Part shown: one piece after another, positions 4,948 to 31,176 of the stretch
Numbering within the stretch: position 1 is the stretch's first letter
Layout of the letters: each line of letters starts with the position of its first letter
NCBI RefSeq assembly: GCF_900111745.1
Contig: NZ_FOIJ01000001.1
Span: 682,001 to 746,000 of the forward strand
Direction of reading: 5' to 3'
From: Stigmatella erecta
Lineage (GTDB): Bacteria > Myxococcota > Myxococcia > Myxococcales > Myxococcaceae
Length of the DNA stretch: 64,000 bases
Notes under the pieces: model-generated
The model's input: only the letters and a program-made list of their open reading frames with translations
The model's database searches: none
What the model was told of the DNA's origin: nothing
Made by a program: the position numbers and the translations under genes

Positions 4948-5610
4948 CTACTGCTTCTGAACCTTGGCCGCAGGCGCCGGCTTCGAGGTGCTGGTGGCCT
5001 GGGCCTTCGCGTCCACGCCCCCGGCCGCCGGGGCCGCCGTGCTGGCCGACGACTTCTCCAGCTGCGCCCGCTTGGCCTTCAGGGTGGAGAGCAGGCCGTC
5101 GAAGCCCTTGTCGGCGAGCAGCTTGCGGAACTGGCCGCGGTAGGTCTCCACCAGGGACACGTCGTCGGTGACGACGTCGTAGATGCGCCAGGTGCCTCCT
5201 TTGCCCGCCACCTTGTAGAGCTTGTAGTCGACCGGGATCTGATCGGCCTTCGCCGTGAGGGTGGTGTCCACGGTGGCCTCGTTGCCCTCGATGGCCTCCT
5301 TGCCGTACTTCACGTCCGCCTGGGCCTGGCCGATGGCCTTCTGGGCGTAGGAGGCGCGCAGCAGGCCCTTCATGGTCTCCGTGAAGTCCTTGCGCTGGGC
5401 GGCGTTGAGCGTGTCCCAGTTCTTGCCGAGGGCGCGCTTGGAGAGCTCCTCGAAGTCGACGAACTTCTCGACGACAGTAGCCAATTGCTCAACGGTGGCC
5501 CCGGGCGCCGAGGCGGCCTTCTGAACGTCCGCGTTGCCGGACTTGACGACTTCCAGCGGTCCGGCGGGCGCGGCGGCGAGCAGCGAGGCGGTAAGCAGGG
5601 CAGCAATCAT
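4948..5610 (-). CDS. mlaC: MlaC/Ttg2D-family periplasmic lipid-carrier protein
   Basis: A 220-residue exported protein. The first 17 or so residues (MIAALLTASLLAAAPAG) form a short signal peptide. The rest matches the MlaC/Tol-tolerance family: 'VEKFVDFEELSKRALGKNWDTL' near 48-70, 'FTETMKGLLRASYAQ', 'VDYKLYKVAGKGGTWRIYDVVTDDVSLVETYRGQF' and a final 'LLSTLKAKR'. MlaC proteins shuttle phospholipids through the periplasm between the outer membrane and the MlaFED complex. An Ala/Pro/Lys-rich tail of about 35 residues is extra. It lies 57 bases after a TolC-like gene on the same strand. The likely ABC partner (MlaE, MlaF, MlaD) is about 23 kb away in this window. Confidence 0.85.
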   Translation of the reverse strand: MIAALLTASLLAAAPAGPLEVVKSGNADVQKAASAPGATVEQLATVVEKFVDFEELSKRALGKNWDTLNAAQRKDFTETMKGLLRASYAQKAIGQAQADVKYGKEAIEGNEATVDTTLTAKADQIPVDYKLYKVAGKGGTWRIYDVVTDDVSLVETYRGQFRKLLADKGFDGLLSTLKAKRAQLEKSSASTAAPAAGGVDAKAQATSTSKPAPAAKVQKQ

Positions 5611-5667: not shown

Positions 5668-7272
5668 TTATTCACCCTCGGCGGGGGGTGCGGCGGTGAC
5701 ACGCTCCAAAGCCGCGATTCCCAGGCGGACGTCAAACCAGCTCTTCGCCTTGTCGGCCGATCCCTGAGCAAGCGCGGTGAAAGCGTCCACCAGTTCACGC
5801 GTGTCGCCCGTGCCGAGATCAAACGCGGCATAGGCGGCCGTGGCCCAGCGCCGCGCGTTCTTCTCCGCCTCGGTGGCGGCCTGGGCGCGCTCCAGCGCGG
5901 CCGTGAGTTCCCCGTGCGTCTTCGTCACCTCCAGGCGCAAGGCGGCCTGGAGCAGGCGCTGCTGGGCCTTGAGCTTGTCCAGCTCGGCCCGGGCCTGATC
6001 CAGCTGCGCCTTCTTGATGGGGATGTCGAAGGTGCCCCGCATGGCGAAGCCGACACCCGCGGTGCGGTCGTTGTAGGGATCGTACGAGAAGGGCGAGCGC
6101 TGCACCGTGGTGTTGGTGGTGTAGGCGAACTTCGCGAAGCCCACGAGCCCCAGGTCCGGGTAGAAGCTGCGCTCGCGGATGAGGACTTCCTGTTCGCGCG
6201 CGGTGACGCCCGCCTGGATCGCCACCAGCTCCGGGCGGCGCTGCTCGGCCTGCGCGAGCGCCTCCTCCAGCGAGGGCGGCGTGAACGCCTCCTTCATCGG
6301 AAGATCCACCTCGGCGATCTTCAGCGGCTCGCCGGGCTTGCCCCCCGCCAGCAGCCGGATGGCCTCCAGCGCGAGCGCCTGGCCCTGCTTCGCCTCCGTG
6401 CGGCGGGCCACGACGATCTGCCGGAAGAAGTTCACCTTGTAGGTGTCCAGTTTGGAGACCTGCTCGGACTCCTCCTCCAGCAGGGCCTCGATGCGCTTGG
6501 CCGCGTCATCCAGCCGCTTCTCCGTCTCGCCCAGCTGGGCCAGGCCCGAGCGCGCGAGCTGGTAACCATAGAAGGCCTGCGCCGCCTGGAGCCCCGCCTC
6601 GGCCCGGGCCCGCTCCCGGAGCGCCCGGCCGATGATGGGGCCCTGATCGCCCGCCTTCTCCAGCGCCGACAGCTTGCCAAAGGTGTACAGCGGCAACAGG
6701 GCGTTGACCTCCGCGCGGAACGTCACGCCCAGCGTGCCGAAGTTGAGGTCTCCCTCCAGCGTGGCCTCCGTGGTGGGCGGGCCGCCCAGGCCGTCGTTGT
6801 GCGCCTCGGGCACGGGGCCCCCGAAGCCCACCACCGTCTCGAACTTCGGAAACCAGGCCCAGTGCGCCTGCCGCTGCAGGGCCTCTAGCCGCCGCAGCTC
6901 CGCCTCGGACTCCTCCACCCGGGCATCCTGCTGGCGCGCCTTCGCCACCAGCATCGCCAGCGTGAGGGGCTTGTCCTGGGGAAGGGGCGCTTCCGGACCC
7001 GCGGGTACCCCCGGCAGCCGAGGGCCCGGGGAGGTAGGCCCCGGGGCGGTCCCCTGCTCCCCCACTTCCGGGGCCCGGGCAGGCACGTCGACCTGGGGCG
7101 TCGCGGGGCCTGGGGCGGCAGGGCCGCTGGGCTGCCCCGGAACGGGCGCGGAAGTGCCTGGAACCGGGGCCGAAGCGCCCGGGGTGACGGCAGGTGCCCC
7201 TTGGGCCTTCGCCGCACCAGAGGAGAGCGCCAGTCCTATTCCCACGAGATGTGCCAGAGCTGTCTGTTTCAC
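5668..7272 (-). CDS. TolC-family outer-membrane channel/efflux protein
   Basis: A 534-residue outer-membrane factor of the TolC fold. A signal peptide (about residues 1-23, ending AKA-QG) is followed by an unusual 70-residue Pro/Ala/Gly-rich linker. After it come two repeats of long amphipathic helices and strands, recognisable by 'LTLAMLVAKARQQDARVEESEAELRRLEA' and 'SLEEALAQAEQRRPELVAIQAGVTAREQEV'. Such proteins form trimeric periplasm-spanning ducts. It lies upstream of the MlaC-like gene and is presumably co-transcribed, which suggests a role in lipid or envelope traffic rather than classical drug efflux. No inner-membrane pump gene is adjacent. The family is clear; the substrate is unknown. 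Confidence 0.85.
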   Translation of the reverse strand: MKQTALAHLVGIGLALSSGAAKAQGAPAVTPGASAPVPGTSAPVPGQPSGPAAPGPATPQVDVPARAPEVGEQGTAPGPTSPGPRLPGVPAGPEAPLPQDKPLTLAMLVAKARQQDARVEESEAELRRLEALQRQAHWAWFPKFETVVGFGGPVPEAHNDGLGGPPTTEATLEGDLNFGTLGVTFRAEVNALLPLYTFGKLSALEKAGDQGPIIGRALRERARAEAGLQAAQAFYGYQLARSGLAQLGETEKRLDDAAKRIEALLEEESEQVSKLDTYKVNFFRQIVVARRTEAKQGQALALEAIRLLAGGKPGEPLKIAEVDLPMKEAFTPPSLEEALAQAEQRRPELVAIQAGVTAREQEVLIRERSFYPDLGLVGFAKFAYTTNTTVQRSPFSYDPYNDRTAGVGFAMRGTFDIPIKKAQLDQARAELDKLKAQQRLLQAALRLEVTKTHGELTAALERAQAATEAEKNARRWATAAYAAFDLGTGDTRELVDAFTALAQGSADKAKSWFDVRLGIAALERVTAAPPAEGE

Positions 7273-22756: not shown

Positions 22757-24064
22757 TCAGCCCTGGGAAGCCGGGGCTGGAGGGGCGGCCCGTACCGTCT
22801 GGGCAATGTCCGCCAGGGCCACGGCCAGGGGCTCGCCACCCGCCATGGGCTTGAGCTGGGCCCGGCCCGACTGGCGCTCCGCCTCGCCCAGCACCAGGGC
22901 GAACCGGGCGCGCGTCTTGTCCGCGCGCTTCATCTGGCTCTTGAGGCTGCCGCCCCGCGTGTCGAACTCCACCTTGAGCCCCTCGCGGCGCAGGCGGCTC
23001 ACCAGGGTGAAGGCCTCGTCCTGCGAGCCCTCGTCCGCCACCGCGATGAACACGTCCGGCGGCGCGCTGAAGCGCTGGCCACCCTCGCGCAGCAAGAGCG
23101 TCAGCCGGTCCAGCCCCAGGGCAAAGCCCACCGCGGGCACGTCCGGCCCGCCCAGGGCTTTCAGCAGCTTGTCATACCGCCCGCCCCCGCCCACCGTGCT
23201 GGCGGTGCCCAGCGCCGGGTGCGAGGCGATGAACTCGAAGGCCGTGCGCGTGTAGTAGTCCAGCCCGCGCACCAGCTGCGGGTTGATGACGTAGCGCACC
23301 TTCAGCGCGTCCAGCTTGCGGCGCACGTCCGCGAAGTGCGCCTGGCAGGGCTCGCACAGGAACTGGAGGATGTCCGGCGCCCCGCGCGCCACGGCCTGGC
23401 ACTTGTCGTTCTTGCAGTCGAGCACCCGCATGGGGTTGTGCTCCAGCCGCCGCTGGCAGTCACCGCACAGCTCCTCGCGGTGTGCCATCAGGTGCTCCAC
23501 CAGCTTCTTCTGGTAGGCGGGCCGGCACGCCTCGTCCCCCAGGGAGTTGAGGTTGAGCGAGATGTCCTTGAGCCCCAGCACCTCCAGGAGCTGCACCACC
23601 ATGTCCATCAGTTCGACGTCCTGCGCCGCCTCGCGCGAGCCGTACGCCTCGGCGCCGATCTGGAAGAACTGGCGGTAGCGGCCCGTCTTCATCCGCTCGT
23701 AGCGGAACATGGGGCCCATGTAGTACCAGCGCGTCACCGGCTCCAGGTTGGACACCGAGTGCTCGATGTAGGCGCGCGCCGCGGGGGCGGTGCCCTCGGG
23801 CCGCAGGGACAGGCTGCGCTGGGCCTTGTCCTCGAAGGTGTACATCTCCTTGCCGACGATGTCCGTCTCCTCGCCCACGCTGCGCACGAAGAGCGCGGTG
23901 TCCTCCACCATGGGCGTGCGGATCTCCCCGTACCCGAAGCGGGTGAACACCTCGTGCACCGAGCGCTCCACGAACTGCCACGTCTCGATGGGCGCCATCT
24001 CCCCGCCCAGCTCGCCGGGCAGAAGATCATTCATCCCCTTCACACCGCTGAGCTTCTGACTCAC
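22757..24064 (-). CDS. hisS: Histidyl-tRNA synthetase
   Basis: A 435-residue class II aminoacyl-tRNA synthetase charging tRNA-His in the cytosol. It shows 'LSGVKGMNDLLPGE' at the N-terminus, motif 2 'YYMGPMFRYERMKTGRYRQFFQIGAEAYGS', the histidine-specific 'VRGLDYYTRTAFEF', motif 3 'GFALGLDRL' and a C-terminal anticodon-binding domain ('DVFIAVADEGS'). An insertion with CGDC, DCKNDKC and CEPC suggests a zinc knuckle, seen in many bacterial HisRS. The GTG start at 24064 overlaps the stop of psd in a GTGA tetranucleotide with GGGGAG upstream, so translation is probably coupled. Frames further upstream are read-through of psd DNA. Confidence 0.95.
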   Translation of the reverse strand: MSQKLSGVKGMNDLLPGELGGEMAPIETWQFVERSVHEVFTRFGYGEIRTPMVEDTALFVRSVGEETDIVGKEMYTFEDKAQRSLSLRPEGTAPAARAYIEHSVSNLEPVTRWYYMGPMFRYERMKTGRYRQFFQIGAEAYGSREAAQDVELMDMVVQLLEVLGLKDISLNLNSLGDEACRPAYQKKLVEHLMAHREELCGDCQRRLEHNPMRVLDCKNDKCQAVARGAPDILQFLCEPCQAHFADVRRKLDALKVRYVINPQLVRGLDYYTRTAFEFIASHPALGTASTVGGGGRYDKLLKALGGPDVPAVGFALGLDRLTLLLREGGQRFSAPPDVFIAVADEGSQDEAFTLVSRLRREGLKVEFDTRGGSLKSQMKRADKTRARFALVLGEAERQSGRAQLKPMAGGEPLAVALADIAQTVRAAPPAPASQG

Positions 24065-24903
24065 ACGATCTCCCCGATGCGCTTGCCCAGACGGACCACC
24101 GTCTCGGGCTGAAGGCTGTCGTCCCACTTCACCCGCTTGGGCTCGAACAGCAGGATGACGGTGGAGCCCATCTCGAAGCGCCCCAGCTCCCCGCCCTTCT
24201 CCACCGGCAGGGCGGTGCCATACCGGTGCACCTTGCCCGGCTTGCCGGTGTGCGTGAGCACCTCGTCATAGGCGGCCTTGATGCGCGACACACACGTGGC
24301 GCCCACCTTCACCACCGCGCACTTGCCGGCCACGGTGTCCAGGTAGGTGACGAGCCGCTCGTTCACGCAGAACAGCGACTGCTTGTTCTTCACCGACGCG
24401 GGGTTGACCGGCCAGAACTCGCCCGGAATGTACGCGTAGCCGGTGATGGTGCCGCCCAGGGGCGCGTGGATGCGGTGGTAGTCCCGGGGCGACAGGTAGA
24501 GCGTCGTCCAGGCCCCGCCGTGGAACGGCGCGGCGGCCGCCGCGTCCCCGAGCAGCTCGTCCACCGTGTACTCGATGCCCTTGGCCTGCAGGCACCGCCC
24601 GTGGTCCGAGTAGCCCACCTGGGACACGCGCGCGTCCACCGGGGAGACCACCACCTTCTCCCCGCTGTCCACCGGCCGCAGGCCCGGCTTGAGCCCCCGG
24701 GTGAAGAACTCCGCGAAGGTGGAGTAGCGCTCGAACGAGTGCTCCGCCTCCTCCATGTCCACGTTGTACGCCTTGGCGAAGGCCTTCATCGCCGCCCGGT
24801 GCACCGGCGCGGGCGCGGGCAGCCGCGTGGCCACCCCCACCGCCGCGGAGAGGGCGGACTTGGGCAACAGGTGCATCAACTTCATGAAGTGCTGTTCATT
24901 CAT
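24061..24903 (-). CDS. psd: Phosphatidylserine decarboxylase proenzyme
   Basis: A 280-residue membrane-associated proenzyme that makes phosphatidylethanolamine from phosphatidylserine. Self-cleavage at the GST motif (M245-G246-S247-T248 in 'FEMGSTVILLF') turns S247 into the pyruvoyl cofactor, leaving a small alpha chain of 34 residues. Other family features are 'SPVDARVSQVG' (D90), 'YLSPRDYHRIHAPLGG' (catalytic His), 'GEFWPVNP' and 'FCVNERL'. Its length matches the short Gram-negative proenzymes. The stop overlaps the hisS start by four bases. Joining lipid synthesis to histidyl-tRNA charging in one operon is unusual. Confidence 0.94.
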   Translation of the reverse strand: MNEQHFMKLMHLLPKSALSAAVGVATRLPAPAPVHRAAMKAFAKAYNVDMEEAEHSFERYSTFAEFFTRGLKPGLRPVDSGEKVVVSPVDARVSQVGYSDHGRCLQAKGIEYTVDELLGDAAAAAPFHGGAWTTLYLSPRDYHRIHAPLGGTITGYAYIPGEFWPVNPASVKNKQSLFCVNERLVTYLDTVAGKCAVVKVGATCVSRIKAAYDEVLTHTGKPGKVHRYGTALPVEKGGELGRFEMGSTVILLFEPKRVKWDDSLQPETVVRLGKRIGEIV

Positions 24904-26939: not shown

Positions 26940-27863
26940 TTACTGGGCAGTCAGGGGAAATTCGTCGAAGTGGGTCAGGCGCTTGAACTCATTGAAGCGG
27001 GCATAAAGTTCAGGCGTCTGGAGATCCCTCAACCGGTCCAGGCTGAAGCGCTCGACGTTGAAGGAGGCCATGACGCTGCCCATGACCATGGCGCGGCACA
27101 GCACGTCCCGGTCGAGCCGGCCTGCGGTGGCCACCATGCCCATGAAGCCGCCGGCGAAGGTGTCCCCCGCCCCGGTCGGGTCGAACACGTCCTCCAGGGG
27201 GAAGGCCGGGCAGGCGAACACATGCTCCTTCTCGAAGAGCAGCGCGCCGTACTCGCCGCGCTTGATGACGACGGTGGAGGGGCCCATGCCGAGGATGGCG
27301 CGGGCGGCCTTCACCACGTTGTGCTCGCCGGTGAGCTGGCGCGCCTCGCCGTCGTTCACGAACAGCAGGTTCACGCGCTTGAGCGTCTCGAGCAGCTCCG
27401 CGCGGGTGTTCTGGATCCACAGGTTCATCGTGTCGGCGGCCACCAGCCGGGGCGCCTTCACCTGGTCGAGCACCTGGCCCTGGAGCTGGGGGTGGATGTT
27501 GCCCAGGAACACGTAGGGGGTGTTGCGGTAGGCCTCGGGCAGCTTCGGCGAGAAGCTCTGGAAGACGTTGAGCTGGGTGTCCAGCGTCTGGGCCTCGTTG
27601 AGCTGCCAGCCGTACTTGCCCTTCCAGCGGAAGGTGCGGCCCTTCTCCCGGACCAGGCCGCTCAGGTCCACGTTGCGCGAGCGCAGAAACTCCACGTGGG
27701 CCTCCGGGAAGTCCTCGCCCACCACGGCCACCAGCTGCACCGGATTGAAGAAGGAGGCAGCGGTCGAGAAGAAAGTGGCCGAGCCGCCAAGAACCTCCTC
27801 CTTGATACCGAAGGGGGTTTCCACCGAATCCAGCGCCACCGAACCGACGACAAGCAGAGACAT
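26940..27863 (-). CDS. PfkB-family sugar or nucleoside kinase
   Basis: A 307-residue ribokinase-fold kinase that phosphorylates a sugar or nucleoside with ATP. The two PfkB signatures are visible: the N-terminal 'VLGGSATFFSTAASFF' (substrate glycine pair) and the C-terminal 'DVFDPTGAGDTFAGGFMG', with the catalytic Asp in GAGD. 'VVIKRGEYGALLF' and 'LLFVNDGEARQLTG' are also typical. Compared with classical ribokinases the segment 'RTFRWKGKYGWQLNEAQTLDTQLNVF' points to a divergent subgroup whose substrate is unknown. It lies 109 bases downstream of mlaD on the same strand; a link to lipid transport is not evident. Confidence 0.88.
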   Translation of the reverse strand: MSLLVVGSVALDSVETPFGIKEEVLGGSATFFSTAASFFNPVQLVAVVGEDFPEAHVEFLRSRNVDLSGLVREKGRTFRWKGKYGWQLNEAQTLDTQLNVFQSFSPKLPEAYRNTPYVFLGNIHPQLQGQVLDQVKAPRLVAADTMNLWIQNTRAELLETLKRVNLLFVNDGEARQLTGEHNVVKAARAILGMGPSTVVIKRGEYGALLFEKEHVFACPAFPLEDVFDPTGAGDTFAGGFMGMVATAGRLDRDVLCRAMVMGSVMASFNVERFSLDRLRDLQTPELYARFNEFKRLTHFDEFPLTAQ

Positions 27864-27972: not shown

Positions 27973-29511
27973 CTAGGGGGTGGGCACGGAGGTGATGAGC
28001 GCCTTGAGGTCGTCGTCGGTGAAGAAGAGGCCGCCGCCGAAGAAGAAGTCCCGTCCGGCGATGAGCCGGTTGGTGGCCGTGTCGCGCTGCTGGGCATTGA
28101 GGATGTCGTCCATGCCCACCGTCACGAAGAGGTGATCAAACGCCTGGGCGCGCAGGGTGGCGCGGATCCGGGGGTAGCGCAGCTCCTCGGCGGAGAAGTT
28201 GAAGGCATCCAGCTTCAGCTCCAGCGCATCCTTCAGGAAGTGCAGGTCCGCGCCCACGCCGCCCGTGGACTCGATGAGGCCGAAGCGCAGCGTGGTGAAG
28301 TAGTAGCGCTTGGCCAGCTGGGCGGAGATCTTGAAGGTCTCCTTGGTGATCTTCTGCGTCTGCGTGACGGGCTGGCCCGAGTCCGGCGGGTTGTTCTGCA
28401 CCACGCGGACCTCCACCATGCCGCGCGGGTCGTCGATGATCTCCAGCAGGTAGTACTTGTCCGGCTTGGGGATGAGCCGCAGCGAGACGGTGTTCTTCGA
28501 GCGCCCCTGCGTCATGAGGTAGGTGGACTGCACGCCCACCTCCGTCTGCAGGCCGGTGAGGCGGCTGGCGTAGTCGGCCACGTCCTCCACCGTCTCGGTG
28601 AGCTTCTGCCCCAGCTGCCGGTCCTGGAGCAGCGTGCCCACCACGCCCTCGCCCTCGCGCACCGTGGTGGTGATGCTCTCGAGGTTGCCCAGGGTGCGGT
28701 CGAGCTTGGCGAGCGAGTCCTTGAGGCTGCCCACCCCCTCCTGGAGCCCCTCCTCGTTGGTGCCGACGATCTTCTTCACGCTGCCGAGCACCTCCCGCAC
28801 GTCCTTGGTGATGTACTCGATGTTGTTGACGATGCGCGTCACCTCGGCCTGGTTCTCGCGCGTCAGCCCGCGCACGTCCGCGGACACGCCCTCGAAGTTG
28901 ATGAGGATGGCGTTGAGCCGCTCGCCGTTGGTCTGCACCATCACGTTCACGGCGTCCGACAGCTTGACGGTGTTCTCCACGATGCGCTGGAGCGAGCCCG
29001 TGCCGCGCTCACCGCCGAGCACCTCGCGCAGCGCCCCGGTCACCTGCTGGATGTCCGCAGTGATCTGCCCCAGCGACTCGAACACGGCCTCCATGCCCTG
29101 CGAGTCGATGACGCGGCGGATCTGCCCCCCGGGCTCCAGGGACGGGGCCTGCTCGGTGCCGGGGTTCAGGTCCAGGAGGAAGTCGCCCAAAAGAGACTCG
29201 GAGCGCTTGGTGATGACGGCATCCTGGCGCATGTCCACGCCCTTCTGGATGCGCAGGAACACCTTGGCGCGCGTGCCCTCCAGGGAGATGTTGCTGATGA
29301 TGCCCACGGGGATGCCGGCGATCTGCACGCGGCTCTTGGGGCTCAGGCCCGAGGCGTCCCGGAAGTAGGCCCACACGGCGACGGACTCGTCGTCGCTCAG
29401 GTTGCCCTTCTGCGAGAACAGAAAGAACGCCAGGAAGAATGCTCCGGCAGCGATGACCAGCAGTCCGACGCGGAACGGTGTGACGAGCTTCTTCACCTGG
29501 GTTGACTCCAA
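27973..29511 (-). CDS. mlaD: Long MlaD-family MCE protein with a putative C-terminal outer-membrane barrel
   Basis: A 512-residue substrate-binding component of an Mla-type phospholipid transporter. An inner-membrane anchor lies at 14-33. The single MCE domain is at about 43-128 ('ASGLSPKSRVQIAGIPVGII', 'LLGDFLLDLNPG'). A long helical region follows at about 135-318, rich in heptads. The C-terminal 324-498 region consists of alternating strands ('NTVSLRLIPKPDKYYLLEI', 'KRYYFTTLRFGLIES', 'PRIRATLRAQAFDHLFVTVG', 'RDFFFGGGLFF') and looks like an outer-membrane beta-barrel. E. coli MlaD has only about 180 residues. The layout matches the one-protein transenvelope bridge described for Veillonella MlaD. 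It follows mlaF by 64 bases. The barrel is inferred from strand pattern. Confidence 0.85.
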   Translation of the reverse strand: MESTQVKKLVTPFRVGLLVIAAGAFFLAFFLFSQKGNLSDDESVAVWAYFRDASGLSPKSRVQIAGIPVGIISNISLEGTRAKVFLRIQKGVDMRQDAVITKRSESLLGDFLLDLNPGTEQAPSLEPGGQIRRVIDSQGMEAVFESLGQITADIQQVTGALREVLGGERGTGSLQRIVENTVKLSDAVNVMVQTNGERLNAILINFEGVSADVRGLTRENQAEVTRIVNNIEYITKDVREVLGSVKKIVGTNEEGLQEGVGSLKDSLAKLDRTLGNLESITTTVREGEGVVGTLLQDRQLGQKLTETVEDVADYASRLTGLQTEVGVQSTYLMTQGRSKNTVSLRLIPKPDKYYLLEIIDDPRGMVEVRVVQNNPPDSGQPVTQTQKITKETFKISAQLAKRYYFTTLRFGLIESTGGVGADLHFLKDALELKLDAFNFSAEELRYPRIRATLRAQAFDHLFVTVGMDDILNAQQRDTATNRLIAGRDFFFGGGLFFTDDDLKALITSVPTP

Positions 29512-29575: not shown

Positions 29576-30361
29576 CTAGTTCTTCCCGAACCAGGTCTGG
29601 AGGAACACCTTGACCGCCTCGTTCTGCGAGGTGCGCAACTGCTCCGGCGGGCCGAACTCCACGATGACGCCCTTGGAGAGAAAGGCGATGTAGTCGGCCA
29701 CGTTGAACGCCGAGGCGATGTCGTGGCTGATGACGACGCTGGTGACGCGCAGCTCGCGCTGGGCCGCGAGGATCATCTCGTCCACGTAGTCGGTGGTGAT
29801 GGGATCCAACCCCGTGGTGGGCTCGTCGTAGAGGACGATCTTCGGATCCATCACGATGGCGCGCGCCAGGCCCACGCGCTTGCGCATGCCGCCGGACAGG
29901 TCCGCCGGGAACTTGGCCTCGGCCGTGCGCGGCAGGCCCATCAGGTCCAGCTTCGCGCGGACGAGCGTGCGGATCTGCTCCTCGGACAGCTGCTTGCGGT
30001 GCTCGCGCAAGGGGAAGGCGACGTTGTCGTAGACGTTCATCGAGTCGAAGAGCGCCGCGGCCTGGAACACCATGCCGAACTTGCGCCGCACGACTTCCAG
30101 GCGCTCCTCGCCCAGGGGGACGATGTCCTCCCCGTCGATGATGACCTGGCCGCTGTCGGGCTTGAGCAGGCCGATCATGTGCTTCATCAGCACCGTCTTG
30201 CCGGAGCCGGAGCCTCCGAGGATGACGCAGGTACTGCCCTCCGGCACGGTGACGTTGATGCCGGTGAGCACCTTGTACTCGCCGAACGTCTTGTGCAGCT
30301 CGACGACCTGGATCATCGGCCGCGTGGAGGTGGCGCGGGGGGGACGGGAGGCGGCGGTCAT
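29576..30361 (-). CDS. mlaF: MlaF-type ABC transporter ATP-binding protein
   Basis: A 261-residue cytosolic ATPase that powers the MlaE permease in phospholipid transport. Walker A is 'GGSGSGKTVLM', the signature 'LSGGMRKRVGLARAI', Walker B 'KIVLYDEPTTGLDPIT' and the switch histidine lies in 'SVVISHDIASAF'. The MlaF/Ttg2A-type 'DLMGLPRTAEAKFPADLSGGM' is present. The ATG at 30361 overlaps the mlaE stop in ATGA, indicating coupling. A second ATG 15 codons later, directly at the ABC fold, is an alternative. The order mlaE-mlaF-mlaD differs from the E. coli order mlaF-E-D-C-B, and no mlaB is present. Confidence 0.92.
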   Translation of the reverse strand: MTAASRPPRATSTRPMIQVVELHKTFGEYKVLTGINVTVPEGSTCVILGGSGSGKTVLMKHMIGLLKPDSGQVIIDGEDIVPLGEERLEVVRRKFGMVFQAAALFDSMNVYDNVAFPLREHRKQLSEEQIRTLVRAKLDLMGLPRTAEAKFPADLSGGMRKRVGLARAIVMDPKIVLYDEPTTGLDPITTDYVDEMILAAQRELRVTSVVISHDIASAFNVADYIAFLSKGVIVEFGPPEQLRTSQNEAVKVFLQTWFGKN

Positions 30362-31176
30362 GTGCGGATGAGCACCCCGATGATGAAATCGAGGATGAAG
30401 ATGGAGAGCGCGCTGGAGACCATGGCCTCGGTGGTCGCCTGGCCCACGCCCTTGGCGCCACCCGAGGCGTTGTAGCCCTTGTAGCAGCAGATGAGCGTGA
30501 CGGTGAGGCCGAAGACGGCCCCCTTGAGCGTGCCCTCGTACAGGTCCAGGGGCTCCATCCACTGCTGGGTGCGCGACAGGAAGGTGCCGGCCGAGGTGCC
30601 CTGGACGAAGACGGAAATCATGTAGGCGCCGCTCATGCCCGAGGTGAAGAAGAGCATGGTGAGCACAGGTCCCATGATGAGGCCCGAGAGCACCCGGGGC
30701 ACCAGCAGGTACTGCACGGGGTTGACGGCCATGGTCTCCAGGGCGTCCACCTGCTCGGTGACGCGCATGGTGCCCAGCTCCGTGCACATGGAGGAGCCGG
30801 CGCGCATGGTCACCATGAGCGCGGAGAACACCGGGGCCAGCTCGCGGCTGAGCGTGAGGGCCACCGTGGGGCCCACCAGGCTCTCGGCGTCGAAGAGGGC
30901 AAAGGCGGTGGACACCTGCTGGGCGAACACCATGCCGGTGAACAGCCCGGTGAGCGCCACGATGAAGATGGAGCCCACCCCCACGAAGTCCAGCTGCGAG
31001 AAGAAGATGTGGGGCCGGAAGGGGCGCTTGAAGGCCCAGCGCAGCACCTGGAAGCCCAGGTGGGCCACGCCCCCCACGTCGCTGACGACGGAAATGGTCC
31101 CCTTGCCGAAGTTTTCGACGGCTTGGGTCAGGAAATGAGGCTCCTTGGGCGCCTTGTCCGCGTTCTCGGTGGCCAT
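30358..31176 (-). CDS. mlaE: MlaE-type ABC transporter permease
   Basis: A 272-residue inner-membrane permease of the MlaE/Ttg2B/YrbE family, with about five to six hydrophobic segments. Diagnostic stretches are 'GVGSIFIVALTGLFTGMVFAQQ', 'ELAPVFSALMVTMRAGSSMCTELGTMRVTEQVDALETM' (the coupling region) and 'PRVLSGLIMGPVLTMLFF'. The dimer sits between MlaF and MlaD and moves phospholipids. It is the first gene of mlaE-mlaF-mlaD and diverges from the zinc-ribbon gene; the 146-base gap holds the promoters. The likely periplasmic carrier, MlaC, is encoded about 25 kb away. Confidence 0.93.
   Translation of the reverse strand: MATENADKAPKEPHFLTQAVENFGKGTISVVSDVGGVAHLGFQVLRWAFKRPFRPHIFFSQLDFVGVGSIFIVALTGLFTGMVFAQQVSTAFALFDAESLVGPTVALTLSRELAPVFSALMVTMRAGSSMCTELGTMRVTEQVDALETMAVNPVQYLLVPRVLSGLIMGPVLTMLFFTSGMSGAYMISVFVQGTSAGTFLSRTQQWMEPLDLYEGTLKGAVFGLTVTLICCYKGYNASGGAKGVGQATTEAMVSSALSIFILDFIIGVLIRT

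Follow-up and report, generated by a model that had tools for sequence, protein, structure and literature searches.

The mlaD gene of Stigmatella erecta, located in a 64,000-nucleotide stretch of contig NZ_FOIJ01000001.1 (the window; genome size 9.2 Mb), probably encodes, as judged from structure models, the MlaD subunit of an MlaEFD-type lipid ABC transporter that itself reaches the outer membrane. The basis for this reading is sequence and prediction: the domains, the gene order, a confidently modelled membrane-faced barrel, the rhythm of the helical region, conservation across the phylum, and the lack of a MlaA match. The mechanism proposed below is that of Grasekamp et al. 2023 (PMC10665443), transferred by analogy to S. 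erecta MlaD; statements attributed to that paper refer to the available part of its text.

Gene, gene order, and domain architecture of MlaD

Read from the TTG at 29511, mlaD has 512 residues, the length given in a preliminary description of this DNA; the GTG at 29496 is the likelier start, giving a product of about 507 residues, because it is preceded by GGAG 9 bases upstream and because aligned homologues have a methionine at the matching residue. Residues are numbered here according to the 512-residue reading (Table 1). On the alignments, the frame is real and no chance frame, since 23 homologues from other genomes (50-81% identical) align over the full length, except one that ends at a contig edge. 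Two alignments were used, A1 with 24 rows and A2 with 48 rows.

Table 1 Features of the mlaEFD cluster, of the MlaD domains, and of the mlaC locus in the window
Feature	Position	Strand	Basis or remark
mlaE, permease	30358..31176	minus	PF02405 E 6.8e-75; TIGR00056 above cut-off
mlaF, ATPase	29576..30379	minus	PF00005 E 3e-32; start chosen within longer open frame
mlaD, long barrel-bearing form (predicted)	27973..29511	minus	likely start GTG at 29496
MlaD N-terminal helix with transmembrane segment, residues 4-34	29410..29502	minus	model, pLDDT mostly <50; conserved in alignment A1
MlaD MCE domain, residues 41-138	29098..29391	minus	PF02470 and structural match to E. coli MlaD core
MlaD helical region, residues 141-320	28552..29091	minus	model (pLDDT <50); hydrophobic period
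MlaD predicted ten-stranded barrel domain, residues 322-498	28018..28548	minus	model, structural matches, face test
MlaD C-terminal tail with short helix, residues 499-512	27976..28017	minus	after last strand
TolC-family outer-membrane factor	5668..7272	minus	PF02321 E 5.6e-25
mlaC, periplasmic lipid carrier family	4948..5610	minus	PF05494 E 2.5e-38; solved MlaC chains, e.g. 8oj4_H E 2.8e-7

The adjoining mlaE and mlaF named in the preliminary description were recovered directly upstream of mlaD on the same strand; for mlaF, the MlaF model was the best match, at 208 bits under its cut-off of 441. A PfkB-family gene (26940-27863) lies behind mlaD. Scanning of named genome contigs gave 73 loci, and the order mlaE-mlaF-mlaD-pfkB-'pilZ'-'phosphoesterase' was conserved in all of the 26 nearest (L035-L060), the last two names being those that we presume for the two genes downstream of pfkB. 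A few genes after mlaD, at 24061-24903 on the minus strand, there is a gene which we take to be that of phosphatidylserine decarboxylase; it was present in 21 of these 26 loci, the other five stopping short of its position. One contig, titled Comamonas sp. KCTC 72670 (L054), carries a myxobacterial mlaEFD region with unchanged gene order and an mlaD 70% identical to that of the window; either its title or its assembly is probably wrong. Among 20 barrel-mlaD loci chosen from distant families (L155-L174), 15 have mlaE, mlaF, and mlaD grouped on a single strand (L155-L158, L161-L163, L165, L166, L169-L174); only mlaF and mlaD were detected in L159 and L167, only mlaD in L164 and L168, and mlaE and mlaF were on the strand opposite to mlaD in L160. 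A second mlaE-mlaF-MCE cluster is present in the S. erecta genome (L108, 6862-9693, contig C6); its MCE protein is a 457-residue open frame with a likely internal start and without a match to the barrel profile, the one barrel match of the genome being the window mlaD.

A single match to Pfam MlaD (PF02470) was found in the protein, at residues 44-118 (E 5.4e-14; 52.6 bits against a cut-off of 25.1), and the modelled MCE domain aligned with the E. coli MlaD core (5uw8) over 97 residues, with Z 17.0 and rmsd 1.8. The full-length model was weak (mean pLDDT 54.8; below 50 across 139-321); the MlaD models placed helices within 141-318 and strands within 322-498, so that, together with the PF02470 match, the previously described succession of an MCE domain, about 180 helical residues, and a C-terminal strand region is confirmed. 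Mean hydrophobicity in residues 141-320 recurs with a period of 3.51 residues; seven overlapping stretches of this region peaked at 3.42-3.59, and the observed power was reached by none of 500 shuffles in each. As a sequence pattern, this period fits a parallel helical bundle having either a hydrophobic core or a hydrophobic lumen, without distinguishing the two. With a helix rise of 1.5 Angstrom per residue, 180 residues would, if fully helical, extend over about 270 Angstrom. In the tail, the model of residues 300-512 has a helix at 499-508, and D occupies positions 499 and 501 throughout the 48 rows of A2.

The C-terminal domain as a predicted outer-membrane barrel

Residues 300-512 were folded alone with 47 homologues from the named-contig scan, giving a model with pLDDT 85 and pTM 0.75. 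Strands 1-4 comprise residues 322-332; 337-349; 352-360 with 365-372; and 383-390 with 393-403; the remaining strands are 406-413, 416-425, 430-437, 448-456, 461-468, and 488-498. Ten is the count when each arm of the long hairpin, though broken, is treated as a single strand and an extra three-residue strand piece at 483-485 is left out. Such an even number would place both termini of the barrel on the periplasmic side, as required by the preceding helices.

The barrel model was aligned structurally to 999 solved chains. The top match was OpcA (Z 16.4, rmsd 2.9, 140 aligned residues); further matches were a designed ten-stranded transmembrane barrel (Z 14.7), Pla (14.3), and a Legionella Dot/Icm porin (13.3). 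Foldseek gave nothing at E 0.001 or better with this model (best E 1.1e-3), and, judged by their titles, the 50 rows listed (E 1.1e-3 to 2.9e-2) were without exception outer-membrane barrels or designed transmembrane barrels. By sequence, the barrel profile matched no solved structure below E 0.4, and the only Pfam match of the domain was at chance level (E 0.2).

Soluble barrels matched as well, BFA1 with Z 12.9 and nitrobindin with 12.1, which is lower than the matches above, if not by much. They would agree with a C-terminal domain that is a soluble periplasmic barrel of the lipocalin or nitrobindin type, binding lipid at the tip of MlaD. We regard this as very improbable: the outer-membrane barrels score higher (16.4, 14.7, 14.3) and fill the listed Foldseek rows, and the polar face of the domain is the conserved one. 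The latter follows from a face test in which strand segments were split by parity into a more and a less hydrophobic face and the conservation of the two was compared (p values ignore the relatedness of rows). In A1, the hydrophobic face of the barrel was the more variable (1.14 vs 0.75 bits, p 0.003; 9 of 12 segments). For the MCE domain of these proteins the opposite was seen, the hydrophobic face being the conserved one (0.64 vs 1.39, p 0.004; 5 of 6 segments). In A2, the barrel gave the same direction more weakly (1.66 vs 1.34 bits, p 0.09; 8 of 12 segments). Segments against the trend numbered 3 of 12 in A1 and 4 of 12 in A2. The pattern, of moderate strength, suggests an inside-out, lipid-facing barrel.

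Both the order of structural matches and the face test thus disfavour a soluble sandwich or lipocalin at the C-terminus. A soluble beta-sandwich was the outcome that the preliminary description had set against its proposal of an outer-membrane barrel; the model of the domain has a barrel instead, and a ten-stranded barrel of the outer-membrane type is supported by prediction.

Distribution in Myxococcota and the retained MlaC

The lineage, called proteobacterium-like in the preliminary description, is Myxococcota. Of 156 genomes of this phylum (completeness filter 90%), 143 were matched by the barrel profile A2 and 154 by PF02470; 4 of the 13 barrel-less genomes are from one family (genome sizes 0.5-1.8 Mb). 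One genome with the usual barrel match has an additional weaker one (G029:C156:11595-12110; E 5.4e-20), a possible duplicate barrel MlaD. Two Nitrospirota contigs (L098, L099) also carry relatives, as does one contig called proteobacterium (L103). According to the preliminary description, finding the architecture here would show it to be broader or older; this novelty does not hold, as Grasekamp et al. 2023 (PMC10665443) had already described the type in Veillonella, reported it from some Proteobacteria and phyla related to them, and called it ancestral. The barrel sequence set of that paper comprises 103 sequences, and its main text, as far as available, contains no word beginning 'Myxococc'. 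New here are the counts for bridge-form MlaD in a phylum outside Firmicutes (143/156 genomes).

MlaA (PF04333) was matched in none of the 156 genomes, the control search being positive in E. coli and Caulobacter, and gave no match in the S. erecta genome itself. MlaC (PF05494) was matched in 125 of the 156, namely in 117 of 143 genomes with the barrel and 8 of 13 without; the S. erecta genome has two matches. Barrel forms are stated to occur, as a tendency and not by strict definition, without MlaA and MlaC (PMC10665443). This tendency holds in the phylum of a Desulfonauticus genome (L107), as its counts indicate: among 197 genomes drawn evenly from that phylum (barrel 38, MlaA 103, MlaC 113), MlaA occurred in 8 of 38 barrel genomes vs 95 of 159 others (p 2e-5), and the corresponding counts for MlaC were 8 of 38 vs 105 of 159 (p 8e-7), relatedness being ignored in both p values. 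MlaC was likewise matched in none of the four genomes of L107, L098, L099, and L103. Myxococcota deviate from the published tendency as regards MlaC, and its presence in 117 of 143 barrel genomes is unexpected for a bridge needing no shuttle.

In the window, mlaC lies about 22 kb from mlaD, with a TolC-family gene 57 bp upstream on the same strand and genes on the other strand flanking both sides of the pair; at E 0.01, sequence comparison matched the TolC-family protein to none of the solved structures. Twenty MlaC genomes were hand-picked from the 125 and surveyed at one locus each. A TolC-family gene was on the same strand and within 70 bp of mlaC, or overlapping it, in 14 loci (tolC first in 12, mlaC first in 2); it was at 322 bp in one locus and at 3.9 kb in another, and 4 of the 20 had no TolC-family gene by similarity to that of the window. 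The spacing was rejected as evidence tying mlaC-tolC to mlaEFD: it is about 22 kb here, but in genome G053 the two lie at 0.77 and 3.99 Mb of one contig. Among the matches listed in a literature search, none had a title dealing with Mla in myxobacteria or with a unit of mlaC and tolC. In two genomes, short MCE frames of 194 and 171 residues occur about 2 kb from a MlaC match (G071:C67:16457-18850 and G072:C409:4195-6579), an arrangement that resembles an E. coli-type cluster, though MlaA was matched nowhere in the phylum sample.

Fourteen genomes have a single PF02470 match together with a barrel match, and 11 of them carry MlaC, so that MlaC often occurs without another detected MCE partner; for 9 of the 14 the coordinates show the two matches to be the same gene, and MlaC is present in 7 of those 9. 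On the same count, MlaC as the partner of a barrel-less MCE protein such as that of L108 was rejected.

These data bear on a reading in which the barrel merely anchors MlaD while MlaC ferries lipid between MlaD and a TolC-family terminus in the outer membrane, MlaC-TolC replacing MlaC-MlaA-OmpC. It would account for a phylum that has no MlaA match yet retains MlaC, for the adjoining genes in 14 of the 20 chosen loci, and for MlaC in 11 of the 14 genomes just mentioned, and it agrees with the Veillonella barrel having been judged too narrow for lipid (PMC10665443). We nevertheless consider it unlikely, given that MlaC went unmatched in 26 of the 143 barrel genomes, where the barrel MlaD would manage without it, and that mlaC-tolC stands outside the mlaEFD cluster at a distance that is not conserved. 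A hybrid route, in which an envelope-spanning barrel MlaD coexists with a MlaC shuttle whose TolC-family outer-membrane partner replaces MlaA-OmpC, is put forward tentatively, its probability being fairly low; if true, there would be two routes, the bridge and the shuttle, which may run in opposite directions, or else MlaC would load and unload the system at TolC.

Myxococcota are a lineage in which the putative bridge and the MlaC shuttle coexist without detectable MlaA; what deserves attention is that MlaC is retained there and is often encoded next to a TolC-family gene. As Myxococcus is genetically tractable, the role of MlaC beside the bridge and the direction of lipid could be addressed in one cell.

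Proposed mechanism and comparison with known systems

In the preferred reading, in which MlaD as a transporter subunit extends by itself to the outer membrane, an MCE ring of six copies, as in characterised MCE proteins, would sit on MlaE, and the amphipathic helices of these copies may form a tube across the periplasm, the far end of which would be anchored by the insertion of each C-terminal ten-stranded barrel into the outer membrane. Powered by ATP hydrolysis in MlaF, the presumed cargo, phospholipid, would pass along the tube, the most likely direction being the one argued for Veillonella, from the outer to the inner membrane (PMC10665443).

Compared by description, V. parvula MlaD has the same domain order (transmembrane helix, one MCE domain, long helical part, ten-stranded C-terminal barrel; Grasekamp et al. 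2023, PMC10665443), and fractionation placed its TM-MCE part in the inner membrane and its barrel in outer membrane fractions (PMC10665443). The two species further share the mlaE-mlaF-mlaD cluster and the absence of MlaA. S. erecta MlaD is longer (about 507-512 vs 419 residues; helical part about 180 vs about 150), and MlaC, unlike in Veillonella, is retained in the S. erecta genome and in most of Myxococcota; tolC stands beside mlaC in S. erecta, whereas in Veillonella tolC and tamB stand behind mlaEFD (PMC10665443). With the E. coli Mla system, S. erecta has in common the MCE fold, MlaE and MlaF, and a MlaC homologue in the genome; it differs from MlaFEDB-MlaC-MlaA in having no MlaA match, and E. 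coli MlaD, with 183 residues, is without the long helices and the barrel that are predicted in S. erecta MlaD. Mycobacterial Mce1 (8fed, 8fef) likewise has an MCE domain followed by long helices, and was both the best Foldseek match of the full MlaD model (E 3.7e-10) and, as 8fed_B, its best PDB match by sequence (E 3.2e-5); the Mce1 chains contribute one strand apiece to a small common barrel (PMC10665443), whereas each S. erecta MlaD chain is predicted to have its own. The multi-MCE tunnels PqiB and LetB share the idea of spanning the envelope, and the MCE folds match (LetB Z 13.7); they have several MCE domains (PMC10665443), whereas S. erecta MlaD has one.
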